In this document: one piece after another, positions 3,309 through 23,658 of the stretch | Position numbering within the stretch: position 1 is the first letter of the stretch | How the letters are laid out: every line of letters starts with the position of its first letter | Virus record (IMG/VR): IMGVR_UViG_3300027834_000029 | Span: 1-24,035 of that record | Origin: a virus | Reading direction: 5' to 3' (one strand) | Length of the DNA stretch: 24,035 nucleotides | The notes under the pieces: model-generated | Seen by the model: only the letters and a program-made list of their open reading frames with translations | Told to the model about the DNA's origin: nothing | The model's database searches: none | Translations under genes and position numbers: made by a program

Positions 3309-4931
3309 ATGTCATTGATTTTACGTGATTATCAGCAAACATTAAAATATGACATTTATGATTCATGGAACGCCGGTTATAAAAACACTATGGCGGTTTT
3401 AGCAACCGGCGGCGGTAAAACCGCAGTCATGTCGTCAATTTTCAAAGACTATGAATCCGAACCGTCTGTCGTCGTCGCACACCGTCAAGAATTAGTGTCG
3501 CAATTATCACTTGCGCTTGCAAAAAACGGTATTTATCACAATGTTGTTGCCGCACAACCTGTCGTCGATTTTTCGATCATTCAACATATAAAGCACACCG
3601 GCACAAACTATCATCATGAAAACGCGCCAGTTATGGCGGCGGGTGTCAGAACGTTTATAAACAGGGCTGAAAAATATGCACAATTTGCATCACAGGTAAA
3701 ACTCGCCGCAACTGATGAATGTCACCATGTCGCACCAGAAAACCAATGGTGGACCGTGTCGAAAATGTTCACCGGGGCGTTAGGACTCGGTGTAACAGCG
3801 ACGCCAACAAGGACCGACAAGAAACCGCTAGGAGCGCATCAAGGCGGATTTTATCATAATATGGTACAAGGACCACCGCCCGCCGAATTAATGCGACAAG
3901 GGTTCTTGTCACAGTATCGTGTGTTCATTCCACCGGCGAGTTTTGACCGGTCGCAAATACCCGTGTCACCGACGACAGGTGATCTAAATGAACACGCAAC
4001 ACGTAAAGCCGCACACAAATCGAAAATCACTGGTGACGTTGTTGAACATTATTTTAAAATTTGCCCCGGTGCGAAAGGTCTAGTGTTTACGGTTGACGTT
4101 AAACAAGCAAAAGAAGTTGCCGATAAATTCAACACCGCCGGTGTTCCTGCGATTGCGTTGGACGGTAAAACACCTGACAAAATACGTCAAAAAGCGCTTG
4201 ATAAATTAGAATCTGGTGAAATTAAAGTTATCACTAACGCACAATTATTTGACGAAGGTTTCGATTGCCCTAGTATCGATTTTATTTCAGACGCTAGGCC
4301 GACTCTTTCACTTGGTCGGTATTTGCAGACATGGGGGCGAGTTCTAAGACCCGGTAAAATTGCGATTTATATTGATCATGTCGGAAACTTTAACCAGCCC
4401 GGTTTTGGTCCGCCTGATATGAATCGCATGTGGTCGTTGAATACTGATCTTGTTACACGACGCGACAGTGACCCGCACGCCATACCGTATCGCGCCTGTT
4501 CTAATTGCGCTCAAGCATATGAAGCAACAACAAACGTATGCCCGTGGTGTGGTCACGTCGAAGTCCCTGATTCGCGATCAATGCCACACTTTGTCGATGG
4601 TGATTTAATTGAATTAGACCCTGAAATTCTGGCACAAATGCGCGGTGAATTAACGACACTGTTAACATCTGATGCAAAAATTCCTTACGGTGCGTCAGTC
4701 AACGTTGTTAATGGTATCAACGCACGACACGAAAAAACACAACGCATTAGACGTGAATTAGGTGAAGCGATTGACCAATGGGCTGGAATCCAGCGATACG
4801 TTTATCAGCGCACCGACGCACAATCATATAGAGCCTTCTATCATATGTTTGGGGTTGATGTTGTCACCGCTCAAACCCTCGACAGAAAAGACATGGTCGT
4901 GACGCTAGAAAGAATTAGAAACAGCTATTGA
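3309..4931 (+). CDS. SF2 DEAD/DEAH-type helicase with C-terminal zinc ribbon
   Basis: This 540-aa protein has all core superfamily 2 helicase motifs in order. They are RDYQ (6-9), Walker A ATGGGKT (32-38), VVAHRQEL (motif Ia, 55-62), Walker B/DExH box DECHH (136-140), GVTATPTRTD (motif III, 161-170), ITNAQLFDEGFDCPSID (motif V region) and QTWGRVLRPG (motif VI, with arginine finger). After the helicase core comes a four-Cys zinc ribbon, C-S-N-C...C-P-W-C, then a C-terminal region I do not recognise. Such helicases are common in phage replication/recombination modules and unwind or remodel branched DNA or displace bound proteins. The start directly follows the preceding stop. Its stop codon overlaps the -35 box of the next promoter. 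Confidence 0.9.
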   Translation: MSLILRDYQQTLKYDIYDSWNAGYKNTMAVLATGGGKTAVMSSIFKDYESEPSVVVAHRQELVSQLSLALAKNGIYHNVVAAQPVVDFSIIQHIKHTGTNYHHENAPVMAAGVRTFINRAEKYAQFASQVKLAATDECHHVAPENQWWTVSKMFTGALGLGVTATPTRTDKKPLGAHQGGFYHNMVQGPPPAELMRQGFLSQYRVFIPPASFDRSQIPVSPTTGDLNEHATRKAAHKSKITGDVVEHYFKICPGAKGLVFTVDVKQAKEVADKFNTAGVPAIALDGKTPDKIRQKALDKLESGEIKVITNAQLFDEGFDCPSIDFISDARPTLSLGRYLQTWGRVLRPGKIAIYIDHVGNFNQPGFGPPDMNRMWSLNTDLVTRRDSDPHAIPYRACSNCAQAYEATTNVCPWCGHVEVPDSRSMPHFVDGDLIELDPEILAQMRGELTTLLTSDAKIPYGASVNVVNGINARHEKTQRIRRELGEAIDQWAGIQRYVYQRTDAQSYRAFYHMFGVDVVTAQTLDRKDMVVTLERIRNSY

Positions 4932-4956
4932 CAACCCTGTCTTAAAGACGTAGAAA
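4928..4956 (+). promoter_or_regulatory. Promoter cassette copy 1 with GTCTTAAAGAC operator
   Basis: The -35 box TTGACA is at 4928-4933, the 11-bp palindrome GTCTTAAAGAC at 4939-4949 and the -10 box TAGAAA at 4951-4956, giving a 17-nt spacer. The same geometry recurs at 15031-15059, 21952-21980 and 23630-23658. Downstream, the leader GGTTATGTTAGATCAATAAA resembles the leaders of the two leftward copies. The -35 overlaps the helicase stop codon. It should drive the small-gene operon starting at 4990. Confidence 0.75.
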
Positions 4957-4989
4957 GGTTATGTTAGATCAATAAAGGGAATTGACAAC

Positions 4990-5619
4990 ATGATGTATGA
5001 TAAAACTTTACCAATAAAAGGCGGGTGGGTGCTAGTCATTCAAAAAGTACCTACCGAAATTGACGTGCCTGTTTTATCAATTTGGTACGCAATGCCTAAA
5101 ATAATTTTTGATAAGCAGTCACAGTTTCCAAACTACCCTAGACCGACCGGTGACGATATAGACATGGCGCTGAAAACTTTATGGCGTCGACGTTGTGGTG
5201 CTAAAATTGACGACGATGATTCAAGTCGAATGGCTCGCGTATTTCAAAAATATTATGGTTATGATGCTGACGAATTTGCTGAAGATGTTGACCTTGTCAT
5301 GAAAGTTGAAATTCTCACACCTGAAGGCAATGTTTGTTTAATGCCGCATGAGTATAATATCGTCAGCAATATTGACGATTATTTTGATATGATTGACGAC
5401 CACCATGTTCAGTTGAAAGAACTTGGAGGGGTGAAAGCTGCAAAGAAAATTAAAGAGATGATTTTTTATTGTCAAACTCGCGGTATATCAAGGGTTGATG
5501 CTCTTAAACTTTGTGCAGGGGAAATCAGAAAACAAAATATTTTATATTTACAATTACACGAAGTATATGGTGAGTTTTTTGGCTTGGTTGACACTCAAAA
5601 ATATAAATTTGTGAAGTGA
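4990..5619 (+). CDS. Hypothetical protein (209 aa)
   Basis: This is the first gene after promoter cassette 1. AAAGGGA lies upstream of an ATGATG double start, so the second ATG (4993) is an alternative. The protein has a GGWVLVIQK beta-like N terminus and a middle segment rich in Asp (IDDDDSSRMARVF, DADEFAEDVDLVMKVE). The C-terminal half is helical and could be an HTH-like region (GISRVDALKLCAGEIRKQ at about 165-182). I do not recognise the family. Its position behind a dedicated promoter and ahead of a chain of small genes suggests an early or middle accessory gene. Confidence 0.75.
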   Translation: MMYDKTLPIKGGWVLVIQKVPTEIDVPVLSIWYAMPKIIFDKQSQFPNYPRPTGDDIDMALKTLWRRRCGAKIDDDDSSRMARVFQKYYGYDADEFAEDVDLVMKVEILTPEGNVCLMPHEYNIVSNIDDYFDMIDDHHVQLKELGGVKAAKKIKEMIFYCQTRGISRVDALKLCAGEIRKQNILYLQLHEVYGEFFGLVDTQKYKFVK

Positions 5620-5624
5620 TCACC

Positions 5625-5784
5625 ATGACATCACTCAAGGCGCACAAATTTATCAGTGAGAAAATTACAGGTGATCATAAACGATATTCAGTTCATTTGT
5701 CATTTGTTGCTGACGACAATTCCTGTTGATTTACCTTTGCGGAATATTGACGTTTTTGAACTTAAGAAAGTAGTAAAAATATGA
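5625..5784 (+). pseudogene. Small phage gene split by a +1 frameshift
   Basis: From ATG 5625 the frame reads MTSLKAHKFISEKITGDHKR... and stops at TGA 5727-5729 after 34 residues (ending FVADDNSC). In the +1 frame, starting at CCT 5722, a matching continuation PVDLPLRNIDVFELKKVVKI runs to TGA 5782-5784. That stop overlaps the next ATG as ATGA, exactly as at most junctions in this operon. The simplest reading is one gene of about 53 codons disrupted near 5718-5724 by a single-base indel, a sequencing error, or programmed +1 shifting. No classical slippery site is evident. Function is unknown. Confidence 0.6.
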
Positions 5785-6212
5785 ACGAACAATTTAAACA
5801 CGCTTTTTGGTTGTTATCAAGACACACAATAGCGCGATATTTATTAAGCAACACAATCGGTCGTGAAGACGGATATGAAAAGGCTGAACGTCATAGGGAA
5901 CTATGTCAAATGTTTGTAGCACTTAAATATTCTGTAACACCTGAAGAATCGTGGGAGTATGATCGACAGCGCATTAGTCGACGATATGATTCGCTTAAAT
6001 TGTCAAAAAGTACAATTTGTTTAGCGGGTGAAGCGCCTATTGATTTCGTACACGACCACACGCAAGAATTGACGGGTCATTTAGAAAAAATTGGAATGCC
6101 AATGGATAAAACATATCCTGACTATGACGTGTTAGCTAAAAAATTTAATGAGCGTTTTTTAGAACTCGCAAATGACGCTTGTGAATTCTGGTTAAAGGCG
6201 ACCGAGATATGA
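5781..6212 (+). CDS. Hypothetical helical protein (143 aa)
   Basis: The ATG sits in an ATGA overlap with the shifted-frame end of the preceding small gene, which supports both calls. The protein looks mostly alpha-helical and charged, with segments such as YEKAERHRELCQMFVALKY and LAKKFNERFLELANDACEFW. It has no signal peptide, no membrane segment and no motif I recognise. It is part of the tightly packed rightward operon under promoter cassette 1. Confidence 0.72.
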   Translation: MNEQFKHAFWLLSRHTIARYLLSNTIGREDGYEKAERHRELCQMFVALKYSVTPEESWEYDRQRISRRYDSLKLSKSTICLAGEAPIDFVHDHTQELTGHLEKIGMPMDKTYPDYDVLAKKFNERFLELANDACEFWLKATEI

Positions 6213-6233
6213 AACACAAAAGAGGCTGAAGAA

Positions 6234-6443
6234 ATGAAAAACACAGACCCGAAAAGCACGCTAATTGAAGGTGATGCTATAGATTTCGAAAATCGTGATC
6301 TAATTTTTCAAAGTGTTTACAGAGCAAATACTGATGGTGAACCAGACGGTAAATATTGGCGAATTCTGACAGGGAACAATCACATGTCCCGGTGGGTACG
6401 ACTGATTTACAGATATGAAATTGAAACAAAGGCGACGTCATGA
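6234..6443 (+). CDS. Hypothetical small protein (69 aa)
   Basis: The start ATG 6234 follows a GAGGCTGAAGAA purine-rich ribosome site. The protein is short, with a W-R-I-L and R-W-V-R-L-I-Y-R-Y pattern suggesting a small beta fold. I know no family. The stop overlaps the next start (ATGA at 6440-6443), so it is coupled to the small membrane protein that follows. Confidence 0.65.
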   Translation: MKNTDPKSTLIEGDAIDFENRDLIFQSVYRANTDGEPDGKYWRILTGNNHMSRWVRLIYRYEIETKATS

Positions 6444-6595
6444 AACAAATTTTATTAATAATTCTTTTGACTTTTGTCGTGTCATTGGTGCCGTTAGCTT
6501 ATTTTATGATTTATGATTTTAAAGGGGCAGTTCAAGCGTCGTTTACAACCGTGATCACATTATTATTTTGGGTAATGGTGGGGTTAAAATCATGA
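6440..6595 (+). CDS. Small membrane protein, two transmembrane segments (51 aa)
   Basis: This is a short frame (51 residues) bounded by ATGA overlaps on both sides, the operon's standard junction. It starts MKQILLIILLTFVVSLVPLAY (first hydrophobic helix, about 3-24), has a short polar turn YDFKGAVQAS, and a second hydrophobic stretch TTVITLLFWVMVGL. A two-helix hairpin membrane protein could be an early membrane modulator or a superinfection-exclusion type factor, but the sequence alone does not say which. Confidence 0.7.
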   Translation: MKQILLIILLTFVVSLVPLAYFMIYDFKGAVQASFTTVITLLFWVMVGLKS

Positions 6596-6945
6596 GTGAA
6601 TATAAATTATCATATGGTCGTTATAACCACGCGCCAGATTTTGAAAAATGTGCATATGAAGTACCAATTCAAGGTGTTTGGAGCGGATACAAACAATGTT
6701 CAAAAACCCGTGGTCACGGACCTAATGAATCATATTGTAAGATTCATGACCCTAATCGTATTGAAGCAAAGAAAAAAGCAAAAGCCCGACAACATGACAT
6801 TGAATATAATCAGCGTTTGAAATTAACGTTCGGTCCTGTATTTTTTCGAAAACTTGAGGAAATTGCCGCCGGTCACAACGACCCGCGCGGTTTAGCAAAC
6901 GATACGATTAATGAATTTAACAATATGTTGAGGGAAATCAAATAA
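6592..6945 (+). CDS. Small Cys/His zinc-binding-like phage protein (117 aa)
   Basis: I chose ATG 6592 because it overlaps the preceding stop (ATGA); an in-frame ATG at 6568 lies inside the upstream gene. Residues 20-52 contain C20, C36, H42, C49 and H52 in the arrangement C...W-x-x-x-x-Q-C-S-x-x-x-G-H-G...Y-C-K-x-H-D-P. I recognise this as a recurrent small phage family with a probable treble-clef-like zinc site. The rest is a charged helix (EAKKKAKARQHDIEYNQR) and a helical tail. It is likely a nucleic acid or protein binding accessory; specific function is unknown. It ends with a TAATG junction to the next gene. Confidence 0.75.
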   Translation: MSEYKLSYGRYNHAPDFEKCAYEVPIQGVWSGYKQCSKTRGHGPNESYCKIHDPNRIEAKKKAKARQHDIEYNQRLKLTFGPVFFRKLEEIAAGHNDPRGLANDTINEFNNMLREIK

Positions 6946-7382
6946 TGGACTCTTTAAGTTTTTATATCGGTGGTATGGTTGCTGTTTCTGTGACTGTTCT
7001 TGCTGATATATGTGACACTCGAACACTTTTAAAACGGGACATTATACCGATTATTTTTACAGGTATGTTTTGGCCCGTGATCATAATTGGTTACATTATT
7101 GACGTTATCGGTCAATCAAGATTTTTTCGCGTTAATATCGCCAGATACCGGGTGAAGAAATTAGTAAATAAAATGGGTGAAGGCTGGCAACCGCATATAA
7201 TTGAAGATAATGCCGGTGATTTTCAGGTGACTGCAACAAAAGGAAACATCAGAATCCATCAAGATAAATATTTTTACTCCGCCAACGTTGATGGTGCACC
7301 GGGTTATCATGAAACAGACCCATATCAAGCGATCGAAAATGCAAAAACAATGATGAACATAGTAAAGGGTTTTGAATCATGA
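6945..7382 (+). CDS. Membrane-anchored hypothetical protein (145 aa)
   Basis: The start is in a TAATG overlap. The N-terminal 60 residues hold two hydrophobic helices (about 5-21, SFYIGGMVAVSVTVLA, and about 33-53, DIIPIIFTGMFWPVIIIGYI). These are followed by a soluble domain with a beta pattern (WQPHIIEDNAGDFQVTA, then IRIHQDKYFYSANV). The soluble part would sit on one side of the inner membrane. Family unknown. It is coupled to the next gene by ATGA. Confidence 0.7.
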   Translation: MDSLSFYIGGMVAVSVTVLADICDTRTLLKRDIIPIIFTGMFWPVIIIGYIIDVIGQSRFFRVNIARYRVKKLVNKMGEGWQPHIIEDNAGDFQVTATKGNIRIHQDKYFYSANVDGAPGYHETDPYQAIENAKTMMNIVKGFES

Positions 7383-7909
7383 GTTTGAAAAAATGGCGCG
7401 ACCTTTATTTATGTCAATTTCCTGAATTAAACACCTCGAATTATTTAAGCACTGTTCATGAAATTAGACAATGCTTTGTCAATAAGATGTGCAAAAATGA
7501 CACACAACAACCTTATGTTCGACAACCTGACGTGAAACTTAATGCAGGGTTGTATTTAACACCGCATTTCGTCGACATTCACACACATGACTATGCTGTT
7601 TTGTTTGGAGAGGATTACACTAAATGGTTGCCTTTAGTGTTGTTTGTAAATCCAAGAATAACGACGTCGGCTGAAATGTCACCGTCACATATCATACAAC
7701 AACCTCGACACCGACAATCAATTCGAATTGTTGGAAGGTCTGACGGATATGTTGACCCTTCAGAAATGAAAAGATTTAGAGTTATCACAAATCAATTTGA
7801 TTATGAATTTTCCGGGCTAGTTAGTGAATACACCCGAACGGCTTGGAGCGATGATAGTTTTGTCACCGCCGATACAACAATTTTTTACACAGGAGTTTCA
7901 GAATCATGA
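7379..7909 (+). CDS. Hypothetical protein (176 aa)
   Basis: The start is in an ATGA overlap. The protein is soluble with mixed composition. A histidine-containing segment FVDIHTHDYAVLF (about 63-75) superficially resembles metal-dependent hydrolases, but I see no second metal motif, so I do not assign enzyme activity. The C terminus looks beta-rich (RFRVITNQFDYEFSGLV). Family unknown. Confidence 0.68.
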   Translation: MSLKKWRDLYLCQFPELNTSNYLSTVHEIRQCFVNKMCKNDTQQPYVRQPDVKLNAGLYLTPHFVDIHTHDYAVLFGEDYTKWLPLVLFVNPRITTSAEMSPSHIIQQPRHRQSIRIVGRSDGYVDPSEMKRFRVITNQFDYEFSGLVSEYTRTAWSDDSFVTADTTIFYTGVSES

Positions 7910-8229
7910 AAAAAGGTCAATTTGTAACAGCTATAAACGACCGGTGGAAATCAAGACCGCCGTTTGAAAAAGCACTGGAAATATTATCCGTCAAAAATCG
8001 AATACGTTGTCAAGTCAGGTCAGACAGGACAACACAGAAATGTGGATATAGATTGCTTTTACAGTCGGATATTATAGCGGTTTTTGACGATAAAAAAATC
8101 GCTGATGAAACAGCAAAACAAGCATATCAGACTTGGACACTATTAAACAATCAGGTAATTGACGCTGAAAAATATCGTGACAACGAAGTGAAGCAAATAT
8201 TACAATCAAAAGGAGAAATTAAAAAATGA
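7906..8229 (+). CDS. Hypothetical protein (107 aa)
   Basis: The start is in an ATGA overlap. The N-terminal half is a short basic beta-like domain (GYRLLLQSDIIAVFDDKKIA) and the C-terminal half is a charged helix (ETAKQAYQTWTLLNNQVI...YRDNEVKQILQSKGEIKK). No known motif is visible. It is translationally coupled on both sides in the cassette 1 operon. Confidence 0.68.
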   Translation: MKKGQFVTAINDRWKSRPPFEKALEILSVKNRIRCQVRSDRTTQKCGYRLLLQSDIIAVFDDKKIADETAKQAYQTWTLLNNQVIDAEKYRDNEVKQILQSKGEIKK

Positions 8230-8618
8230 AAAAAATTGAAGCATATGTTGAAATGGTCAACAACGGAAAAGTAATTAAAGCTAAAAATTGGGAACCTCAC
8301 CAACACATTAAATTAAATAAAAATAATTGTGTTGTTGATGAACAGGGGCGTGACCATTTGACAAATATTTTTAATGAAGGTGACGAATGGAACTTTGCGG
8401 ACGAATGGACACCGGTTAACACATTTGAAATTGCGGTTGGTCACATGGAACGCGGCGGTGTAGCAAGATTTAAAGGGCGCGAATATTGTATTCGACCTGA
8501 CGCGGTTGGTGACATAACTTTACAAGAAACGATAAAATTGGGAATGCCGCCAAGTTTGAACTCATTTTTACCGAATCCGTATACTTCTTTGAAAGGAAAA
8601 TGGGAAATTAAAAAATGA
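8226..8618 (+). CDS. Small phage protein, paralogue of 2946, W...W-x-(I/F) layout
   Basis: This 130-aa protein starts in an ATGA overlap. Its N terminus, KKIEAYVEMVNNGKVIKAKN followed by W, fits the E-A-x-x-x-M-x-x-G-K-x-x-(K/R)-x-x-x-W pattern of small phage proteins, with a following GDEWNFADEW. Its second part FEIAVGHMERGGVARF...EYCIR aligns with the 2946 gene, making these two-part paralogues. A third relative lies at 9184. The layout recalls Tad2/DUF2829-like proteins, some of which counter Thoeris immunity by sequestering the signal nucleotide, but similarity is by pattern only. The function stays open. Confidence 0.7.
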   Translation: MKKIEAYVEMVNNGKVIKAKNWEPHQHIKLNKNNCVVDEQGRDHLTNIFNEGDEWNFADEWTPVNTFEIAVGHMERGGVARFKGREYCIRPDAVGDITLQETIKLGMPPSLNSFLPNPYTSLKGKWEIKK

Positions 8619-9127
8619 AAATCTTAACAGAACATTCCAGTGCGGTCATTTCAACCGATGGTGTTTATCGTTACTGGTTGCATCGACGGTGGAAAACATT
8701 AAACCCGGAAAAAACAGCGATATTTGTTATGTTGAATCCTTCCACCGCTGATGAAAAAACAGACGACCCGACAATTCGAAAATGTATCAAGTTCGCTGAT
8801 AAATTTGGTTGTGATCGACTTAGTGTTGTTAATCTGTTTGGGTTAAGAGTGACGAATCCCGATGAATTATCGGGTCATCTTAACCCTGTCGGACCTAATA
8901 ACGATCTTCATTTAAATATATGTTTTGAAACCAATAAAAAATCGTTAGTAATATTCGCGTGGGGTAATCAAGGTAAGCTTAATCAGCAAGACGAACGTGT
9001 CAGACAACTAGCATACAAAGCAGGTATCACACCATTTGCTTTTGGGTTCAACAAAAACGGCACACCGAAACACCCTCTTTATCAGCCTGACAACCAAGCA
9101 TTGTTCGCTATGCCGGTGACACAATGA
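8615..9127 (+). CDS. DUF1643 family protein
   Basis: This 170-aa protein starts in an ATGA overlap. It has the DUF1643 signature: YRYWLHRRW near residues 18-26, VMLNPSTADEKTDDPTIRKC at 38-57, then FADKFGCDRLSVVNLFGLR and, later, IFAWGNQGKL (113-122). It ends with a KHPLYQP motif. Family members occur in phages and bacteria and have no established reaction that I can cite with confidence. The conserved N-P-S-x-A-D and A-W-G-N patterns suggest a ligand or nucleic-acid binding fold. Family assignment is strong; function is unknown. Confidence 0.88.
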   Translation: MKILTEHSSAVISTDGVYRYWLHRRWKTLNPEKTAIFVMLNPSTADEKTDDPTIRKCIKFADKFGCDRLSVVNLFGLRVTNPDELSGHLNPVGPNNDLHLNICFETNKKSLVIFAWGNQGKLNQQDERVRQLAYKAGITPFAFGFNKNGTPKHPLYQPDNQALFAMPVTQ

Positions 9128-9162
9128 CACCAACTTCGTTAACGGAATATTTGAAAAATTAG
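9124..9162 (+). other. 12-codon mini-ORF after DUF1643
   Basis: The ATG lies in an ATGA overlap with the DUF1643 stop, giving MTPTSLTEYLKN then TAG. It follows the operon's junction style but is very short. It may be the decayed 5' end of a lost gene or a coupling peptide. Low confidence that it makes a functional product. Confidence 0.25.
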
Positions 9163-9183
9163 TCGACCCTAGGAATTGAAATA

Positions 9184-9573
9184 ATGAATAAATTTGAAGC
9201 GATCACTTTAATGTATGAAGACAAAGCGAAAATCCGGTCAATGAATTGGCCTACCGGAAAGTATATAAGATTATCTCAATTTGGCGCTATTATCTATCAA
9301 GACAACAGCCCGACTTCAATTACACACTTACGCGACAAAAGTTCATGGGAAATTTATGATTCTGCGTTTATTGATTCTGATATTCAACCCGGTTTAAAGG
9401 TGTGTTTGAGTAAACAGTTCACAAGCACCTATCAATTTATTACAACTCGCATAAACGGGCAGATTATCTGGTTAATGGTCAACGTTGAAAAGTCATTTGT
9501 AGGCAAGAAATTTAACAACGCTAGTGAAGTCGTGAAATACTTAAACAAAAATCATTTTTCAAAGGCGGCATAA
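9184..9573 (+). CDS. Third member of the W...W-x-I-Y small phage protein set
   Basis: This 129-aa protein has AGGAA 9 nt ahead of its ATG. The N terminus MNKFEAITLMYEDKAKIRS, then W, and the downstream SSWEIY (about 56-61) match the pattern of the 2946 and 8226 genes. Its C-terminal half differs, ending in a helical segment (FNNASEVVKYLNKNHF). It is the last clear gene before the hairpin at 9615. It may be diverged or recombined, since only the first half resembles its relatives. Function unknown; Tad2-like by layout only. Confidence 0.68.
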   Translation: MNKFEAITLMYEDKAKIRSMNWPTGKYIRLSQFGAIIYQDNSPTSITHLRDKSSWEIYDSAFIDSDIQPGLKVCLSKQFTSTYQFITTRINGQIIWLMVNVEKSFVGKKFNNASEVVKYLNKNHFSKAA

Positions 9574-9666: not shown

Positions 9667-9726
9667 ATGAAACCTATAAGACAGGGAACACCGTTCAATG
9701 ACAACAATAACACCGACAAGCGGTGA
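9667..9726 (+). other. Possible 19-codon leader ORF overlapping the primase start
   Basis: ATG 9667 is preceded by GAGGGAACGAACAAA, a better ribosome site than the one for the primase gene. The frame MKPIRQGTPFNDNNNTDKR ends at TGA 9724-9726, 29 bases inside the primase gene. It could couple or limit translation of the primase-helicase, or be chance. Low confidence. Confidence 0.25.
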
Positions 9727-12319: not shown

Positions 12320-12544
12320 TGAAACAAGTGTAACGCTGTGACCCGCAGAAAACAGCCGTTTGTGTCAATGTTTCATGTTTCAGTCCATTCTCAAGTCATT
12401 ATAGGTAAAAAATATATATAATGTTTATTAAATTTCCATATATACATGAAATTATATTGAAACATTGAAACATTGAAACATTTGGCTATTTTCTGCGGGC
12501 TAGAGCGTTTCGATTGAGTTTTTAAAGTGAAACAAAGTGAAACA
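12320..12544. other. Candidate replication origin: TGAAACA iterons in AT-rich gap
   Basis: The 313-bp gap between the primase-helicase and the next gene carries eight copies of TGAAACA. Direct copies are at 12320, 12458, 12466, 12474 (three in tandem with 8-bp period), 12528 and 12538. Two inverted, adjacent copies (TGTTTCA) are at 12369 and 12376. Between them is a very AT-rich stretch (AATATATATAATG, CCATATATACATG). Repeated protein-binding sites plus an AT-rich stretch next to a replication initiator gene is the classic layout of an iteron origin. A cluster of operator sites is the main alternative. The rest of the gap (12545-12632) shows only a 15-codon frame and the ribosome site of the next gene. 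Confidence 0.6.
12342..12499. repeat. Long-range inverted repeat around the iteron region
   Basis: CCCGCAGAAAACAGCC (12342-12357) and its near-complement GGCTATTTTCTGCGGG (12484-12499) match at 15 of 16 positions. They enclose 126 bp holding five of the eight TGAAACA copies and the AT-rich core. The arms could extrude as a large stem, bound an element, or bind a dimeric protein at both edges. Confidence 0.9.
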
Positions 12545-15030: not shown

Positions 15031-15059
15031 TTGACAATATTGTCTTTAAGACTTATTAC
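15031..15059 (+). promoter_or_regulatory. Promoter cassette copy 2 with GTCTTTAAGAC operator
   Basis: The -35 box TTGACA is at 15031-15036, the palindrome GTCTTTAAGAC at 15042-15052 and the -10 box TATTAC at 15054-15059, with a 17-nt spacer as in the other three copies. It starts directly after the TerL stop and precedes the two-repeat DNA-binding protein gene. The leader differs from that of the other copies, so the conserved unit is the promoter/operator itself. Confidence 0.75.
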
Positions 15060-15090: not shown

Positions 15091-15483
15091 ATGAGAAAAG
15101 AAACCCGGTGTTCTATAATAACACAACGTCTTCGTGTTGATGAATTTGAAAAGCTATTATCAGCGCCCGCGCCAGTGAGAAATAAAAAACGCGTGGCGCG
15201 TTGGACGCCTGAACTGATACAAACCGAAGCGTTAAAATATAAAACACGATTAGATTTCGCAAAAGGGTCTGTCGGGGCTTATCGTGCGGCGACAAATCTT
15301 GATATTTTAAGCGACGTCTGTTCACACATGCCGCGCGATCTTAAACAGGTTTGGTCATATGAAAAAATCATAGCAGCGGCGGCTAAATATAAAACCCGTG
15401 GTGATTTTAGAACACAGAATGAAAAAGCTTATAACGCCGCGCGACGATATTTAATTCTTGATGAGGTTTGCAGTCATATGTAA
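15091..15483 (+). CDS. Free-standing homing-endonuclease-type repeat protein, no catalytic domain
   Basis: This 130-aa protein contains two copies of a roughly 43-residue module: residues 38-80 (RWTPELIQTEALKYKTRLDF...AYRAATNLDILSDVCSHM) and 88-130 (VWSYEKIIAAAAKYKTRGDF...AYNAARRYLILDEVCSHM). I recognise this W...E-A-x-K-Y-x-T-R-x-D-F...A-Y-x-A-A...V-C-S-H-M module as a repeat usually attached to phage and bacterial homing-endonuclease-like or Vsr/GIY-YIG-like nucleases, where it is thought to bind DNA. Here it stands alone, with a basic N terminus. AAAGGAA precedes ATG 15091. It has its own promoter within the packaging region, so it may be a mobile-nuclease remnant adopted as a DNA-binding regulator. 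Function is inferred. Confidence 0.75.
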   Translation: MRKETRCSIITQRLRVDEFEKLLSAPAPVRNKKRVARWTPELIQTEALKYKTRLDFAKGSVGAYRAATNLDILSDVCSHMPRDLKQVWSYEKIIAAAAKYKTRGDFRTQNEKAYNAARRYLILDEVCSHM

Positions 15484-18082: not shown

Positions 18083-19450
18083 ATGAAAAACATCAGCGCG
18101 GTAAAACGATATATATCTGACGGGTTCGTAAATTTCGTTTCGGGAATAGGCGTGGCAGGTCGAGATAAATCCGCATCGAACCATTACGGTCAGCCTGTTT
18201 ATGATTATTTACAACAAGAAACGATGTATCGGACGTCATGGTCTGGTCGTAAAGTAATCGATATCCCCGCCGGTGACATGACTCGACAATGGCGGACATG
18301 GGCTGAAAATGATGTTGAAAATGCTAAAATTGAAAGAAAATTCAAGCTTCAAGAACTGTCAAAACAAGCAATCATCATGTCAAAGAAACATGGTGGTGCG
18401 GCAATTTATATCGGTTTAAACGGTATCAGTGATGAAGAATTGTCAGAACCTTTGAATGTTAAAGACTTGAAGCCTGAAGATTTGAAATATCTGACTTTGT
18501 TTTCAAGGGAAGAAGTTGTTCCGGCAAAGTATGACATGAAAGCACTTTCAGAACGATACGGTCGGGGTGAATTGTTCAATATTAAACGCGGTGAAGGCGG
18601 TGAAAGTTTAAAAATTCACCATTCACGTTTTGCATGGTTTGGCGGTGCACCAACGTCAGCAGAAACGGCTCGATTAAATCAAGGGTGGGATGATTCGGTT
18701 TATACATCACTTCGCACGTTAATCGAAACCGCTGATAGTGCGCTTGCCGACCTTGCCGCTTTATTACCTGAAGCACGTGTTGATGTTTTAAAAATTAACG
18801 ATCTTGCTAGTTATTTTGAAGACGAAGAATCTGAATCCAGATTGCAAAAACGAATTCTTGGCACACAATATTTAAAGTCAATTACACAATCATTGGTGAT
18901 TGATGCACAAGAGGACTATGAGAATAAAACCACTCAATTTGCGGGGGTCGTTGATGTGTTTTCCACGGCGCTTGAAACGCTCGCCGGTGCCGCTGAAATT
19001 CCTATCACCAGATTTTTAATGAAGTCACCCGGCGGTTTGAATTCAACTGGTGAATCTGACTTGATTAATTATTATGACAGTATAAAATCACGTCAGGAAA
19101 ATGAGTTAAGCACCGCATTATCAGTGATTGACGATATTTTGTTTCCTGACGCGGCGTTTAAATGGTCAGCGCTTTGGCAATTGTCACCAGATGAACAGGC
19201 GAAGGTTAATAAAGCAAATGCTGAAACAACACAAATTTATGTCGATTCACAGTTGTTTGACAATGACGTTTTAGCGCAAGCCTCTTTAAAGCAATTGGAA
19301 CAAAATAACGTTTATCCGGGTTTGGCTGAAATTATTGAAGGGTTGGGGGGAACAGAAAATGCAATTGACGTTGTCAAAATTCCTGAAGACGACGGGAATA
19401 AATCGAAAACCGTTGACCCTGTTACCGGTTCAACCGGGTCTGACGTTTGA
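18083..19450 (+). CDS. DUF1073-type portal protein
   Basis: I chose ATG 18083 because a very strong ribosome site (GAGGGGGAGGG) ends about 7 nt upstream; an ATG at 18050 lies inside the preceding gene. The 455-aa product fits the DUF1073 portal family: N-terminal R-D-K-x-x-x-x-x-Y...Y-R-T-S-W-S-G-R-K-V-I-D-I-P-A, then MTRQWRTW, the KHGGAAIYIGLNG segment, and DVFSTALETLAGAAEIPITRF followed by NSTGESD, typical of the portal crown/stem region. Portals form the dodecameric DNA channel at one capsid vertex and dock TerL. Some relatives carry an added C-terminal Acb1 anti-CBASS domain; none is visible here. The 3' end overlaps the head morphogenesis gene by 92 nt. Confidence 0.87.
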   Translation: MKNISAVKRYISDGFVNFVSGIGVAGRDKSASNHYGQPVYDYLQQETMYRTSWSGRKVIDIPAGDMTRQWRTWAENDVENAKIERKFKLQELSKQAIIMSKKHGGAAIYIGLNGISDEELSEPLNVKDLKPEDLKYLTLFSREEVVPAKYDMKALSERYGRGELFNIKRGEGGESLKIHHSRFAWFGGAPTSAETARLNQGWDDSVYTSLRTLIETADSALADLAALLPEARVDVLKINDLASYFEDEESESRLQKRILGTQYLKSITQSLVIDAQEDYENKTTQFAGVVDVFSTALETLAGAAEIPITRFLMKSPGGLNSTGESDLINYYDSIKSRQENELSTALSVIDDILFPDAAFKWSALWQLSPDEQAKVNKANAETTQIYVDSQLFDNDVLAQASLKQLEQNNVYPGLAEIIEGLGGTENAIDVVKIPEDDGNKSKTVDPVTGSTGSDV

Positions 19451-20282
19451 ACTTCAATATCGACGATATGGTCGTGACGCTTTAAATGAACAAATCAAAT
19501 ATATTAATTCGGAATTTATGCCGGGGTTGATGCGGGTTCATAGCCTATACACGGCCGACGCTATGTCTGACGATGTTGCCGAACAACTGGCACAATTGAC
19601 AGCAACGTTTGGTCATATCGCTGACAAGATGATAAGTCGAGTCAACGCACTACAACAAAAATTTGCCGGGGCGCATACAAAAAAATGGACCGCGTCAGTT
19701 AAAAAAACCCTTGGTATCGACATTAATTCATTGATCGACAAAGACCTTGACGAACATTTACGTCGATTTGCACTTGGTAATGCGCAATTAATCAAAGGTG
19801 TTTCAAGCGATGTCGCTAAACAGATTTCGATTAAAACACTAGCGGCATTTAGGTCAAATCTGACAGCAAAAGAATTCGGTAAAGTGTTGTCGCAAGATTT
19901 CAACGAAGTGTTACACGGTAAACACACCGGACGCACTGAAGCGAGTCGTAAACGCGCACAACAAGCAAAGCGGGTACTACTACGGCGACAACAAGCGAAA
20001 GACCCGTCAAAAGGCACCGGTCGCCCGTTTAAGTACCAATCAAGGTATGATTTAATCGCGCGTGACCAAACTTCAAAACTGAATTCAGAACTAACGCGAG
20101 TTAGACATCTTGAAGCCGGGATTAAACGCTATCGCTGGCGCACCGCTGGTGATGAACGTGTTAGACACGCGCATTCAATGTTGAATAATCATAGTCGCCG
20201 GTGGAATGAACCGCACCCGACTGAAGGTCATCCGGGAAGCCAAATAAATTGTCGTTGTGTGGCACAAGGTATCATCGAATAA
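19359..20282 (+). CDS. Head morphogenesis protein, SPP1 gp7 / Mu F-like
   Basis: ATG 19359 follows GGGGGGAAC; a TTG at 19335 is a weaker option. The 307-aa product has the family's YRRYGRDALNEQIKYI-type N terminus and a helical middle. The diagnostic C terminus reads LIARDQTSKLNSELTRVRHLEAGI, YRWRTAGDERVRHAHSMLN and a final HPGSQINCRC. The family is a minor head protein that binds the portal and is packaged in proheads. The usual order portal then gp7-like is kept. The stop codon lies inside the T-run of the terminator for the opposing operon. After this gene, rightward head genes are interrupted by a leftward island until 23709. Confidence 0.87.
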   Translation: MQLTLSKFLKTTGINRKPLTLLPVQPGLTFELQYRRYGRDALNEQIKYINSEFMPGLMRVHSLYTADAMSDDVAEQLAQLTATFGHIADKMISRVNALQQKFAGAHTKKWTASVKKTLGIDINSLIDKDLDEHLRRFALGNAQLIKGVSSDVAKQISIKTLAAFRSNLTAKEFGKVLSQDFNEVLHGKHTGRTEASRKRAQQAKRVLLRRQQAKDPSKGTGRPFKYQSRYDLIARDQTSKLNSELTRVRHLEAGIKRYRWRTAGDERVRHAHSMLNNHSRRWNEPHPTEGHPGSQINCRCVAQGIIE

Positions 20283-20309: not shown

Positions 20310-20334
20310 CAAAGTTCAAGGAAGGATTTTGCGT

Positions 20335-20955
20335 TTAGTTTTTTACCTCACTTTCTGTTATGTTGTCGATTAATATTTTAGGTCTATTTATAACCGTTTG
20401 CTTCAATCCTTTGTAGATGTCATGCGCTTTGATTGTTGCTTTGATTTTGATTGTAGTGTTAATTCGGTCTTCCCAATTAAAACCACCCTTACACACAATA
20501 GGGTTTCCTTTCTGGTCTTCACATATGTTTATAAAGACAACACCCCATTGTGAACAGAATTCGTGAACGTGTTTCACCGTTAAAATAAATTCGCGACGTT
20601 CTTTTATATCACCTACAAATTCGACTTTTTCGTTTTTCGCTTTACACTCCACCGCGTATTTTTTTTCGTTATCGATTGATTTATGATAAGCGTTTCGAAC
20701 CGCTTCGGTTTGTCGTTCGGTTAATTGTCCCCATTCTTGCAAATCTTCCATCATAGAATCCAAAAATTTTGAGTTTGGGCGATAAGGCATCAAGTCAGAT
20801 TCATCACAAGTATAATAACCGCAAAGCCATTCTTCAATTTGCTTTGCGTCATTGTAGGTAGCGAGCCATTTTTTCTTTCGGGTCATACGAGCATTCATTT
20901 TAATTCTGGCTTGAATTGCTGCTTCGTAGCGTTGCGGGTTGTGAATGTGTGACAT
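20335..20955 (-). CDS. Phage protein with probable OB-fold domain
   Basis: I prefer ATG 20955 (MSHIHNPQRYEAAIQ) because AAGGGAA lies 9 nt upstream. A longer frame from ATG 21009 would overlap the neighbour by 17 nt with a poor ribosome site. The 206-aa product has a helical N-terminal half with WLATYNDAKQIEEWL and GQLTERQTEAVRNAY, the pattern of a phage family (S/Q-L-T-E-x-Q-x-x-A-V-R) followed by an OB-like domain. That domain here starts at VEFVGDIKERREFILTVKHV and ends FNWEDRINTTIKIKATIKAH. I infer nucleic-acid binding. It is last in the leftward operon, before the terminator. Confidence 0.72.
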   Translation of the reverse strand: MSHIHNPQRYEAAIQARIKMNARMTRKKKWLATYNDAKQIEEWLCGYYTCDESDLMPYRPNSKFLDSMMEDLQEWGQLTERQTEAVRNAYHKSIDNEKKYAVECKAKNEKVEFVGDIKERREFILTVKHVHEFCSQWGVVFINICEDQKGNPIVCKGGFNWEDRINTTIKIKATIKAHDIYKGLKQTVINRPKILIDNITESEVKN

Positions 20956-20992
20956 GTAAGTCGTTCCCTTCATTGCTTTTGATAATGACGTC

Positions 20993-21235
20993 TCAACCAT
21001 TTTCTTCATTCCATTTCACAACAGCGTCGTGCATGTTGTCGGCACGTTTACCGGGTGCAGAATGTTTCATGCCGTTGTCGATGATTGCTTTTAATAGAAT
21101 GATGTCTTTGTCTGACAATCCGCCGGGAATACTGACCGCCCGAATTGTTGCGTTAATTACACGTCCGGCGTCCATTAAAAAATTTTGATTTGCGGCGTTT
21201 GTTAATATTTTGTCGAGTTTTTCAGCTTCAGTCAT
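20993..21235 (-). CDS. Hypothetical helical protein (80 aa)
   Basis: AAAGG lies about 9 nt before ATG 21235. The protein is small and probably helical, with a possible HTH-like segment GGLSDKDIILLKAIIDNGMK. No known family. It overlaps the preceding gene's stop by 8 nt in the leftward operon. Confidence 0.65.
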   Translation of the reverse strand: MTEAEKLDKILTNAANQNFLMDAGRVINATIRAVSIPGGLSDKDIILLKAIIDNGMKHSAPGKRADNMHDAVVKWNEENG

Positions 21236-21464
21236 TTTCGTAACCTTTCTGATTTAAACAATCATCTAGAAATCGTTCACCAGCGGCGAGCCAAAATTTA
21301 AGCGACCAGTGTCGTAATGACTTGACCATGACCGATCGAGTTCTAAATGTGACACCATCGTCAAACATGAAAAAATAATATTGCCCGCCGCCTGATACCA
21401 AATCAAGATTCTTGTTTCCTAGTTTTTTAAGGATGGTTCGAGTGTTGAAGGTTTGTTCAATCAT
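21228..21464 (-). CDS. Small phage protein of the G-x-Y-(Y/F)-F-F type (78 aa)
   Basis: The protein contains LDLVSGGGQYYFFMFDDG then TRSVMVKSLRHWSLKFWLAA and a helical end. I recognise the layout, (E/D)-(L/I)-V-x-G-x-G-Y-F-x-F...S-(V/I)-x-x-x-x-L...S-(L/I)-x-x-(W/Y)-(L/V), as a widespread family of very small phage proteins without known function. The 21685 gene shows the same pattern and the 21461 gene is a possible relative. Coupled to 21461 by ATGA. Confidence 0.7.
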   Translation of the reverse strand: MIEQTFNTRTILKKLGNKNLDLVSGGGQYYFFMFDDGVTFRTRSVMVKSLRHWSLKFWLAAGERFLDDCLNQKGYEND

Positions 21465-21688
21465 TTTAAATATGTCTTATTAAAATGAATACGTCTTCTT
21501 GCTGACATATAAGCAGCATACGCATGTTGACCTTCAGCCGCGCCGCCACCGGTAATTTCTTTTCGAAACCATTTCCCGTTTGGTAATTTGAAATATGTTC
21601 CGCCGCCTTGATCGACGTTAGTCAAACAATCATTTTGGTGTTGCCTGAAATGTTTGTAATAGTGAAGAATTGAACTATTTACGGTCAT
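21461..21688 (-). CDS. Small basic phage protein (75 aa)
   Basis: This is bounded by ATGA overlaps on both sides. It has a short Gly-rich beta segment VDQGGGTYFKLPNGKWF followed by RKEITGGGAAEGQHAYAAYM and a basic C terminus. The G-G-G-x-Y-F core faintly resembles its neighbours' G-x-Y-Y-F motif, so it may be a diverged relative. Function unknown. Confidence 0.62.
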   Translation of the reverse strand: MTVNSSILHYYKHFRQHQNDCLTNVDQGGGTYFKLPNGKWFRKEITGGGAAEGQHAYAAYMSARRRIHFNKTYLK

Positions 21689-21918
21689 ATTATGTCACTT
21701 TCCTTAAATTCGTTGTAACCTGTCTTCACATGGTCGACATAATCGGCGATTGACATTTCTGACAAATGATTTGAATAAATGCTGGTAATAAATTCTTCAG
21801 AACCTAATGGTGCGTCGTCTGTTGCCGCAAACCAAAAATAACAATCACCTTTGACGATTTCGAAAGGTAAAGAATTTGACTTCAAAGCGGCGTTGATGTT
21901 GTTGACCGTGGTTCTCAT
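21685..21918 (-). CDS. Small phage protein of the K-G-x-x-Y-F-W-F type (77 aa)
   Basis: This is the first gene behind promoter cassette 3, with AAAGGAACC before ATG 21918. The sequence LPFEIVKGDCYFWFAA, then FITSIYSNHLSEMSIADYVD, fits the same small-protein layout as 21228: V-K-G-x-x-Y-F-x-F, a short linker, then S-I-Y-x-x-x-L-x-x-x-S. It is a tandem paralogue of that gene. Function unknown. Confidence 0.7.
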   Translation of the reverse strand: MRTTVNNINAALKSNSLPFEIVKGDCYFWFAATDDAPLGSEEFITSIYSNHLSEMSIADYVDHVKTGYNEFKESDII

Positions 21919-21951
21919 GATAAAGGTTCCTTTCGTTGATTTGATATAACC

Positions 21952-21980
21952 CTTTTACGTCTTTAAGACAGGTTAGTCAA
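21952..21980 (-). promoter_or_regulatory. Promoter cassette copy 3 (leftward) with GTCTTAAAGAC operator
   Basis: On the minus strand TTGACT (21980-21975) is followed after 5 nt by GTCTTAAAGAC (21969-21959) and then the -10 box TAAAAG (21957-21952). A leader GGGTTATATCAAATCAACG and AAAGGAACC follow, nearly identical to copy 4. It should start transcription of 21918 to 20335. Confidence 0.78.
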
Positions 21981-21989
21981 GCACTAAAT

Positions 21990-22355
21990 TTATTTTATCA
22001 TTTCCCCATATTCAGCTAATGCTTGTTCAGCGGCGATTTGCCGGGCTTGCATTGTGTCACCTGTGAAGTGTTCTTTCAAGAAAGAGTCATATATTACCGG
22101 GTCAACGGTCCCGTTGTCGAATCCTTCAACCATGTCGGTTGTTTGTTCAACGTGTGCGTTTAATGCAATCAACGCCACGGCAAGTTTTTCAGTGATTTTT
22201 GTCAAGTCTGGCTTGATTGTGAAGAATTCACTCATAGCCGCATTGATTGTTTTTTGGAGCCTTTCGGTAAAATCATTTTTATCAAATACGACAAACCCGT
22301 GTTTTTCAGCAATTACGAACATGTGTGAAACTTCGTCGTTGATTTTATTTGTCAT
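21990..22355 (-). CDS. Hypothetical helical protein (121 aa)
   Basis: AAGG lies about 10 nt upstream of ATG 22355. The product is mainly alpha-helical and acidic, with segments LQKTINAAMSEFFTIKPDLT, ITEKLAVALIALNAHVEQTT and RQIAAEQALAEYGEMIK. It has no membrane segment or known motif. It is the last gene of the promoter 4 transcript before promoter cassette 3, which begins 10 nt after its stop. Confidence 0.68.
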   Translation of the reverse strand: MTNKINDEVSHMFVIAEKHGFVVFDKNDFTERLQKTINAAMSEFFTIKPDLTKITEKLAVALIALNAHVEQTTDMVEGFDNGTVDPVIYDSFLKEHFTGDTMQARQIAAEQALAEYGEMIK

Positions 22356-22368
22356 TGTCCCAACCTTT

Positions 22369-22548
22369 TTAAATTGCGTATAATTTATCGTTAAATTTTA
22401 TGATTTTAAATTCAAATTCGTCGTCTTTATATGTTCCGACATTTTCACCAAATGCTTTGACTTTTAACATTGTCCAATCAGACGCCGCAACGCTATTGCG
22501 ACAAGCAATATAACATTGTGTCGATATCGCCAATGGTGTTTCATTCAT
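22369..22548 (-). CDS. Hypothetical small protein (59 aa)
   Basis: This is a short frame reading MNETPLAISTQCYIACRNSV, then AASDWTMLKVKAFGENVG and a lysine-rich beta-like end FEFKIIKFNDKLYAI. It is supported by the ATGA overlap with the preceding gene's stop (22545-22548) and by filling the gap between two operon genes. Function unknown. Confidence 0.6.
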   Translation of the reverse strand: MNETPLAISTQCYIACRNSVAASDWTMLKVKAFGENVGTYKDDEFEFKIIKFNDKLYAI

Positions 22549-22712
22549 GACATCTCTTCCATAAATTTTTTAATTTCGGCGTCACGGGTATTAGCGTAAC
22601 GTTTTAACTTATCGCTAGTTTGCTTCAATATTCGCGCCGCGCTCCGCGGTGCACCATCGTCAAAATAAGCAATTGCAAGTTCAGCGGCGTTTTGGATTTC
22701 GTGAGCGTCCAT
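22545..22712 (-). CDS. Small EIQNAAEL-family protein (55 aa)
   Basis: I chose ATG 22712 (MDAHEIQNAAELAIAYFDDG), since AAAGGAAC lies upstream; a longer frame from 22730 would start inside the ribosome site region. The protein is a compact helical pair: EIQNAAELAIAYFDDGAPRS, then AARILKQTSDKLKRY. I recall the (E/A)-I-x-N-A-A-E-L-A-x-A-Y...D-G-A-P-R-x-A-A pattern from other small phage proteins of unknown function. Its start region repeats the 3' end of the next gene upstream (22714). Confidence 0.65.
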   Translation of the reverse strand: MDAHEIQNAAELAIAYFDDGAPRSAARILKQTSDKLKRYANTRDAEIKKFMEEMS

Positions 22713-22761
22713 TTTAATAGTTCCTTTCATTGAAAATTAGTTCAGCGGCGTTTTGGATTTC
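22678..22761. repeat. 23-bp direct repeat, copies 61 bp apart
   Basis: An exact 23-bp sequence occurs at 22678-22700 and 22739-22761. In both copies it encodes the residues EIQNAAEL in the leftward frame, once near the N terminus of the 55-aa protein and once near the C terminus of the 115-aa protein. It suggests a local duplication or recombination event. Confidence 0.9.
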
Positions 22762-23061
22762 TTTCGGGTCGTCACTGGTCACGGTGTCGTCTTTGTCATG
22801 ATGCAAATATAATAATGCTTCAAGGCAACCGATTGTTGAATGTAAACGTTGTTTCAATTTGTCGATTTCGAAACCAGCGTCTTTCAATTGTTCACGTAAT
22901 TTGTAACCGGGTTCAAGGTCTTTAACCCACACGTTCCCCGACCCGTCACAATAACAATTAAGTTCGTTATTCCATTTTAAAATCAGTTTAGGGTTTTTTG
23001 TTTCGTCCTTTGCTGTGATTGCTTGTTGTTCTGTGTCGAATCGACCGATTATTTTGATCAT
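22714..23061 (-). CDS. Hypothetical protein (115 aa) with duplicated EIQNAAEL end
   Basis: AAAAGG lies 7 nt before ATG 23061. The protein starts with a compact domain (MIKIIGRFDTEQQAITAKDE, WNNELNCYCDGSGNVWVKDL), then a helix (EQLKDAGFEIDKLKQRLHST). It ends SDDPKEIQNAAELIFNERNY. That end looks like a broken copy of the neighbouring 55-aa protein's start. The first 74 nt overlap the end of the upstream gene. Function unknown. Confidence 0.66.
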   Translation of the reverse strand: MIKIIGRFDTEQQAITAKDETKNPKLILKWNNELNCYCDGSGNVWVKDLEPGYKLREQLKDAGFEIDKLKQRLHSTIGCLEALLYLHHDKDDTVTSDDPKEIQNAAELIFNERNY

Positions 23062-23344
23062 AATTTACCTTTTCAAGTTCAGCGTGAAACCGTTTTGGAA
23101 CAACTGTTGTGGTGCATTGGTAGGCGTCTTCGAAATATTGAGGTAGCTTGTTGTTTTTGGTCACATAGGCCCATGCGCGACACATATTAGCATCACGCAC
23201 TAATACCAAGCGCTTGTCGGGTTCGTTTGGTAAACCGGGACATTTGTTAAAAAATTCATGGTCGATAATGTCTTGATCGTTTGGGTTGTCGGTGTGACTA
23301 ATGTCAACTGTTTCAATATCCCATTCATAACTGACTGTAGACAT
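22988..23344 (-). CDS. Small phage protein of the V-P-K-R-F-H-A-E-L type (118 aa)
   Basis: I chose ATG 23344 (MSTVSYEWDIETVDI) because AAGGGAA lies in the repeated 30-bp leader just upstream; an open frame extends further but lacks a ribosome site. Residues show YEWDIETVD, DQDIIDHEFF, RLVLVRD, CRAWAYV, KLPQYFEDAY and VPKRFHAEL. I recognise this order from small phage proteins found in proteobacterial phages, function unknown. In my recollection these end soon after the F-H-A-E-L motif; here a further 28-residue basic tail runs through the next gene's start. Possible stop loss. Confidence 0.72.
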   Translation of the reverse strand: MSTVSYEWDIETVDISHTDNPNDQDIIDHEFFNKCPGLPNEPDKRLVLVRDANMCRAWAYVTKNNKLPQYFEDAYQCTTTVVPKRFHAELEKVNYDQNNRSIRHRTTSNHSKGRNKKP

Positions 23345-23621
23345 GATTTCGGGTTCCCTTCGTTGATTTGAATTAGATGTTATCGACACCGCGTTCGAAT
23401 GAATACTTACAACCAGTGCATTCAAAAGCGGCAACCAGACTTTTAATCAGGTGTTTTTTTGATGTGAAATTAGATGCATATGATTTAATTATTTTGTGAT
23501 TTTTTGGGTCTGTTTCGTCGCGCACGTCAGCACACCAAGGTCGAGCAACCCCGTTAAAAGTGTCTTTCCTCAATATTGCAACAACTGTAAGCATGATTTC
23601 GGGTTCCCTTCGTTGATTTGA
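23342..23621. repeat. Exact 30-bp leader repeat (two copies)
   Basis: Identical 30-bp copies at 23342-23371 and 23592-23621 each cover the ribosome site and ATG of a leftward gene (starts 23344 and 23594). A shorter, diverged version precedes ATG 21918. Read leftward the unit is TCAAATCAACG, AAGGGAACCCG, AAATCATG. A copied translation-initiation leader, either duplicated with the gene starts or maintained by recombination. Confidence 0.92.
23373..23594 (-). CDS. Hypothetical small protein (73 aa), first gene of the leftward island
   Basis: ATG 23594 follows AAGGGAA in the leader of promoter cassette 4. The protein MLTVVAILRKDTFNGVARPW, then CADVRDETDPKNHKIIKSYA, ends with C-T-G-C-K-Y-S-F-E. 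The first half suggests a small beta fold; the Cys residues (C22, C58, C61 by my count) may bind metal but the set is incomplete. Family unknown. It is separated from the next gene by the repeated leader. Confidence 0.66.
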   Translation of the reverse strand: MLTVVAILRKDTFNGVARPWCADVRDETDPKNHKIIKSYASNFTSKKHLIKSLVAAFECTGCKYSFERGVDNI

Positions 23622-23629
23622 TATAACCC

Positions 23630-23658
23630 TTTTTACGTCTTTAAGACAGGCATGTCAA
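23630..23658 (-). promoter_or_regulatory. Promoter cassette copy 4 (leftward) with GTCTTAAAGAC operator
   Basis: On the minus strand TTGACA (23658-23653) is followed after 5 nt by GTCTTAAAGAC (23647-23637) and the -10 box TAAAAA (23635-23630), then a GGGTTATATCAAATCAACG leader. It is nearly identical to copy 3 through to the ribosome site. It drives the whole leftward island from 23594. Confidence 0.8.

Follow-up and report, generated by a model that had tools for sequence, protein, structure and literature searches.

Four predicted promoter cassettes with a common palindromic operator before accessory operons of a phage, compared with the promoters of its relatives

What holds together a set of small-gene operons that lie scattered over a phage genome, some of them on the strand opposite to the late genes? 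The question is raised by IMG/VR virus record IMGVR_UViG_3300027834_000029, analysed here over its entire 24,035 bases (the window, which is probably a fragment), for which the original prediction had described a promoter cassette in four copies, each with an invariant operator GTCTTWAAGAC between its -35 and -10 boxes. A scan of the window bore this out: the pattern TTGACW-N5-GTCTTWAAGAC-N-TA has four matches, with no mismatch to TTGACWNNNNNGTCTTWAAGACNTA, whose TTGAC boxes start at 4928 (+), 15031 (+), 21980 (-) and 23658 (-), while 1.8e-6 perfect matches are expected from base composition. When up to three mismatches are tolerated the same four cassettes are still the only ones found (0.08 expected in shuffled sequence), and the exact palindrome occurs four times in the window, always inside a cassette (0.016 expected).

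The geometry of the cassettes is constant. Each has five bases, the palindrome and one further base after its -35 hexamer, with a -35/-10 spacer of 17 nt, and TTGAC precedes the first start codon by 60–64 nt in all four. The TTGAC of copy 1 overlaps the helicase stop codon TGA (4929-4931), and that of copy 2 starts directly after the terminase stop. The leader GGTTAT..ATCAA is common to copies 1, 3 and 4, as had been claimed, copies 3 and 4 being near-identical through it; the leader of copy 2 (GTT-T..AACAANAAAGGAAC) proved to be a recognisable relative, and the leaders can be aligned across all four copies. In copy 2, where the leader and the bases 5′ of the palindrome have diverged, the two arms of the palindrome are preserved and a change at the centre base alone leaves it symmetric. 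Because the -10 boxes (final hexamers of the cassettes in Table 1) are weak, none having T at position 6, we only infer promoter activity; their position is supported by the ATCAA leader, which begins 6–7 nt past the 17-nt-spaced -10 box both in copies 3 and 4 and in Agrobacterium phage Milano. An internal contrast is given by the divergent core promoter region at 2858..2945, between the leftward gene 2132-2851 and the rightward gene at 2946, where facing TTGACA boxes share TTACATGTAA and GTCTTWAAGAC is absent. A similar facing-TTGAC layout precedes the helicase in Milano, Susan, L110 and L158.

We consider it probable that the cassettes are early promoters of accessory operons, jointly shut off by a DNA-binding repressor of the phage. 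The four elements would be early promoters of the host-sigma70 type, serving dispersed accessory operons, and each would hold one operator for one common sequence-specific DNA-binding protein. The binder would most likely be a phage-encoded dimeric repressor; seated on the palindrome, in the -35/spacer region, it would keep RNA polymerase away. After their early expression the accessory operons would be switched off together, those on the opposite strand within the late region as well. The regulator may be a member, or a functional equivalent, of the TetR_N repressors encountered in relatives of this phage.

Helicase alignment brought in 80 IMG/VR relatives, among which, together with named phages, two classes of operator are defined here. 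Class I, defined by comparison, reads TTGACN-N4-NGTCA, overlaps the -35 box and comes with a TetR_N gene. In 87 loci (1.6 Mb) TTGAC-N6-GTC occurs 370 times, against 32–83 times for each other spacing from 0 to 14. Klebsiella phage IME346 has 12 sites TGACG-N4-CGTCA (TTGACG-N4-CGTCA), each overlapping a TTGAC -35 box, and Acinetobacter phage Scuro, Vibrio phage 138 and Edwardsiella phage MSW-3 have variants of the same TTGAC-N6-GTC geometry. Most of these relatives have, shortly downstream of the helicase, a gene for a TetR_N-only protein that has no ligand domain. An exact TTGAC-N6-GTC lies at most 170 nt upstream of the TetR_N domain start at 26 of 78 loci, some of them close kin and not all independent (0.18 expected), and several more loci have near variants; in IME346 and its IMG/VR relatives the operator at the gene's own promoter is a distinct variant, TTGACCACNCCGTCAA. 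The minimal protein matches Pfam TetR_N (8.5e-7) and, by PDB profile, the DNA-binding domain of solved TetR repressors (1.1e-11); its AlphaFold2 model has a pLDDT of 94, and TetR structures are the top matches to it, with modest E-values. Because the operator repeatedly precedes the TetR_N-only gene, the encoded protein is the likely autorepressor of class I, and an autoregulated repressor whose operator covers the -35 box is the natural reading of these sequences. The TetR_N proteins of L113, L115, L123, L126, L129, L154, L157 and L163 are 166–168 aa long and have two tandem TetR_N domains, possibly forming a single-chain dimer. Promoters with TGACA-N5-TGTCA occur in the nearest helicase relatives (L110:9943 and 11616, L158:9953), where one precedes the helicase; the second such promoter of L110 lies directly 3′ of the helicase, the place of window copy 1, and L158 has a near copy.

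Class II, as defined here, comprises identical palindromes at a fixed place in the spacer, in at least two copies before genes. Palindromes repeated at a fixed offset from TTGAC were found at 12 of 94 loci, the window included, whereas 59 permuted anchors gave a mean of 0.44 and a maximum of 4. Agrobacterium phages Milano, OLIVR4 and 7-7-1 share the palindrome TACAAATNATTTGTA, present at seven sites in Milano as TTGAC-N3-TACAAATNATTTGTA. Others are GATAAATTATTTATC (L120), TAAATWATTTA (L122 and L128), GGTTA-N5-TAACC (L125) and TTACTAGTAA (L150), and RSP has the palindrome TGTCCGGACA at -10 (TTGAC..TGTCCGGACA). L120, L125 and L128 carry sites of both classes in one genome, and therefore at least two regulators probably act there. 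Among the genes read behind class II promoters no helix-turn-helix gene was recognised; the XRE protein of Milano, considered as a possible class II regulator, has no operator upstream of it. In L033 six copies of CGGTCGNAGTGACCG (1595, 6509, 7931, 8462, 9498, 10249) stand between a promoter-like TTGA..TAGAGT, just 5′ of them, and the ribosome-binding site, which follows directly, as a candidate operator or RNA hairpin.

The window has features of both classes. All four cassettes show the class I spacing TTGAC-N6-GTC, of which the window has five sites against 0.64 expected, and a matrix made from five Scuro sites ranks them 1 to 4 in the window. In place and form the palindrome is of class II, with four identical-arm copies in the spacer before genes; the class I symmetry over the -35 box, TTGACN-N4-NGTCAA, is absent, the window reading TTGACW-N4-TGTCTT. 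We tentatively place the window, with rather less than even confidence, as a branch that merges class I and class II features in one 22-bp element (TTGACW-N4-TGTCTTWAAGAC) with a private regulatory code. It would belong to a large, mostly uncultured phage clade in which early accessory operons are controlled by a minimal TetR_N repressor lacking a ligand domain (65–116 aa, or two tandem domains) on an operator fused to the -35 box, side branches supplementing or replacing it with other regulators on private spacer palindromes.

Several observations weigh against joint repression of this kind. After GTC, about 350 of 400 sites elsewhere continue with A, whereas those of the window have TT, and GTCTT is nearly private to the window. 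The match to the Scuro matrix lies mainly in the -35 box, and with that box masked only copy 2 stands out. Neither Pfam TetR_N nor two custom profiles (one of 101 domains) detected a TetR_N gene in the window, which includes the complete syntenic helicase-primase interval. The closest helicase relatives with a TetR_N gene (L109, L110, L158) carry few N6-GTC sites, and an activator could be required at such weak -10 boxes.

Searches were extended beyond the window. The exact cassette has 20 single matches in IMG/VR, a number in line with chance; most of them lie within coding sequence, and a single repeated family accounts for several. A looser hybrid of the Scuro and window patterns has 71 single matches and forms no cluster. 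When 84,980 genomes of bacteria and archaea were scanned for the extended cassette, with promoter boxes required, four single matches came up, in Lachnospiraceae, Streptococcus and an unclassified metagenome-assembled genome, about the number expected by chance. The scan of relatives that the original prediction had proposed thus had a divided outcome: the exact operator was found repeated in no other record, and the architecture is shared by relatives. It had also proposed that relatives with the promoter boxes retained and the palindrome lost would speak against the cassette, a check that does not directly apply, the relatives having swapped the palindrome for others and not lost it. Identity of the window operator with that of Scuro was considered and rejected on the masking result. 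The window regulator may have moved, or a different protein may have taken over, with the operator remodelled; a phage repressor is favoured, its family being left open.

Could the same sites serve activation? A phage activator acting in the manner of T4 MotA or MerR, needed at weak -10 boxes, would turn the cassettes into middle promoters, and the -10 hexamers do lack the final T, whereas TATAGT or TATACT is frequent in the class I promoters of Jedunavirus. We regard this as unlikely, given a good -35 box and an optimal 17-nt spacer, and given that the TetR_N gene paired with the operator in relatives is itself behind an operator overlapping its own -35 box. The place of the palindrome varies among relatives, over the -35 box, in the spacer or at -10; this is hard to reconcile with an activator, and because of it a steric repressor fits better. 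Of the two types of regulator earlier suggested for a spacer palindrome, the repressor at a promoter with built-in operator is retained, whereas a MerR-type activator is disfavoured because of this variable place and because the spacer is 17 nt in all four cassettes.

The binding protein might instead come from the host, the phage having borrowed the site GTCTTWAAGAC of a host regulon and thereby placed its accessory genes under the control of host physiology. Some class II phages indeed have no identified cognate gene, and no specific regulator was recognised among the window proteins; yet a host regulon should have many sites, and the genome scan reported above stayed at chance level, although by requiring promoter boxes it is not a full test. 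We judge this improbable, and more so the notion that the cassettes are recent duplicates of one promoter-leader unit spread by recombination, in which the palindrome hitch-hikes without a regulator. The likeness of the leaders, almost complete between copies 3 and 4, would be explained in that way, but the surroundings of copy 2 have diverged around intact palindrome arms and a symmetric centre change, and in relatives the corresponding promoter segment repeatedly holds unrelated palindromes, far more often than in controls. Repression by a phage protein accounts for the cassettes with higher probability than any of these.

The candidate regulator of the original prediction, the two-repeat protein encoded at 15091, finds no support. 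Its gene lies directly behind copy 2 and its product is predicted to be an all-helical repeat protein, as an autoregulated repressor might be, but unrelated phages of Vibrio, Rhizobium and Burkholderia have its relatives at as many as nine places per phage, and it does not travel with the GTCTTWAAGAC operator. The protein has no match in Pfam, among helix-turn-helix families or to a PDB fold, its predicted model matches no solved fold, and the Jedunavirus and Milano genomes with class I or II operators showed no gene of this type. Repeats of this kind presumably accompany homing endonucleases. Autoregulation by this protein is in our estimate the least credible of the explanations considered.

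Each cassette precedes small genes (Table 1). The operon behind copy 1 includes DUF1643 (8615-9127) and two genes that match phrog_6670 (8226-8618 and 9184-9573, both +, E 9e-6 and 4e-7); the gene 2946-3308 (+) is perhaps a third resembling these two, with a very weak Tad2-like match (E 0.14). The operons behind copies 3 and 4 form an island that runs against the late genes and is flanked by the head morphogenesis gene and the protease gene. Opposite-strand small genes are also found in the matching late region of Klebsiella phage IME346 (gp40-47, gp49-50), Vibrio 138 (gp24-27, gp29-32) and Edwardsiella MSW-3 (gp05, gp11-12), where the island operons are headed by operator-type promoters. The same late-region slots thus hold operator-promoted opposite-strand genes in distant phages, and therefore the place of the island and its possession of separate promoters are conserved while the genes are not. 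The layout before small genes, the late-region island included, recurs in distant relatives, in keeping with the earlier proposal of one coordinated accessory set.

Table 1. Coordinates of the cassettes, operators, operons and landmark genes of the window
Feature	Coordinates	Strand	Description
DNA helicase	3309..4931	+	landmark gene for finding relatives
Cassette copy 1	4928..4956	+	TTGACA-ACCCT-GTCTTAAAGAC-G-TAGAAA; before the 4990-9573 small-gene operon
Operator copy 1	4939..4949		GTCTTAAAGAC
Small-gene operon behind copy 1	4990..9573	+	about 11 open reading frames between helicase and primase, most without a family
Primase	9698..12319	+	
Terminase large subunit (terL)	13528..15030	+	
Cassette copy 2	15031..15059	+	TTGACA-ATATT-GTCTTTAAGAC-T-TATTAC; immediately 3′ of the terL stop
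Operator copy 2	15042..15052		GTCTTTAAGAC
Two-repeat all-helical protein (phrog_20046)	15091..15483	+	behind copy 2, after terL
Head morphogenesis protein	19335..20282	+	left island border
Leftward operon behind copy 3	20335..21918	-	five small genes without assigned function
Cassette copy 3	21952..21980	-	TTGACT-AACCT-GTCTTAAAGAC-G-TAAAAG; before leftward 21918 to 20335
Operator copy 3	21959..21969		
Leftward operon behind copy 4	21990..23594	-	about six small genes without assigned function
Cassette copy 4	23630..23658	-	TTGACA-TGCCT-GTCTTAAAGAC-G-TAAAAA; before leftward 23594 to 21990
Operator copy 4	23637..23647		
Head maturation protease (DUF2213)	23709..24035	+	right island border, cut by the record end

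The window encodes an exonuclease, helicase, primase, terminase, portal, head morphogenesis protein and head maturation protease. Judged by sequence, its phage is a distant relative of Agrobacterium phage Milano and Klebsiella Jedunavirus. Among cultured phages, Sinorhizobium and Agrobacterium phages have the nearest helicases (43–45%), Synechococcus and Pseudomonas phages the nearest terminases, and Stenotrophomonas, Xanthomonas and Rhizobium phages the nearest portals; megablast found no close relative among 50,697 phage records, and a terminase scan of IMG/VR found no relative. The gene order GapR, exonuclease, 2132-2851 protein, divergent helicase is common to the window and Milano. The GapR-like DNA-binding gene (738-1097, -; PF10073, 7e-31) is also near the exonuclease-helicase module in Milano; such a protein is typical of alphaproteobacteria, and an alphaproteobacterial host is a reasonable guess. 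No integrase or CI-type repressor was seen among the proteins of the window fragment, and no MerR-family gene among those of its proteins that were scanned. A candidate replication origin is the non-coding, AT-rich stretch 12325-12516, 3′ of the primase, where TTGAAACA/GTGAAACA units recur and a 51-nt inverted repeat has arms that are 78% complementary and lie 90 nt apart. Tandem repeats inside coding sequence were noted at 1-120 (unit GGCATTCCTGCCTGTGGTGCCATACCGGGCGCT) and in the 2132-2851 (-) protein (PAPTIE repeats).

Control of phage promoters by repressor and operator is of a known kind; the operator family, its link with TetR_N-only genes and the private spacer palindromes are apparently undescribed, no account of them having been found in the literature searched, outside which most subscription journals lay. 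A single repeated motif becomes a testable regulatory system, in which the operator TTGAC-N6-GTC and a probable TetR_N-only regulator are defined for Klebsiella, Vibrio, Edwardsiella and Acinetobacter phages and many uncultured relatives; such TetR_N genes had been annotated merely as TetR family or hypothetical, without a target. Layout, leader and island positions persist from branch to branch and the operator sequences change, which suggests rapid turnover of regulator specificity, possibly as a way for co-infecting phages to escape cross-repression. Accessory genes are also marked out by the operators, even on the opposite strand in the late region, and a search for anti-defence and host-takeover genes could well begin with them.

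Among known and newly defined systems, the class I promoters of Jedunavirus, Yokohamavirus MSW-3, Vibrio 138 and Acinetobacter Scuro resemble the window in helicase/primase or packaging kinship, in GTC at N6 from TTGAC, in the small-gene operons and opposite-strand islands in the same late slots, and in a similar leader and distance to ATG. They differ in having the palindrome over the -35 box and a TetR_N gene, whereas the window has no TetR_N gene and its perfect GTCTTWAAGAC palindrome is shifted into the spacer. Class II promoters (Milano, OLIVR4, 7-7-1, L120, L122, L125, L128, L150) share with the window a spacer palindrome, mostly of odd length with a free or W centre, in several copies before small genes, and in Milano the leader likewise starts about 6 nt past -10. 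Their sequences are unrelated to that of the window, the palindrome centre is mostly at position 15 from the first T (16 in the window), and several of these phages have a TetR_N gene and class I sites as well. MerR-type promoters are alike in having a palindrome within the -35/-10 spacer, but that spacer is 19–20 nt long in contrast to the 17 nt here. The tetR-like genes reported in phages phiPLPE, CP-T1 and 138, seen as cellular regulators possibly co-opted by phages (PMC3391216), are minimal TetR_N genes of the very kind compared here, 138 gp14 among them; the paper reports no operator, promoter or regulon, and neither 'promoter' nor 'operator' appears in its text. The stoperators of mycobacteriophage Cluster A are asymmetric sites of a monomeric repressor that also terminates elongation (PMC9283540, PMC6550527). 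There, too, one repressor serves many dispersed copies of one site and specificity differs between relatives; stoperators, however, also lie away from promoters, while the window sites are symmetric and all four stand within promoters.

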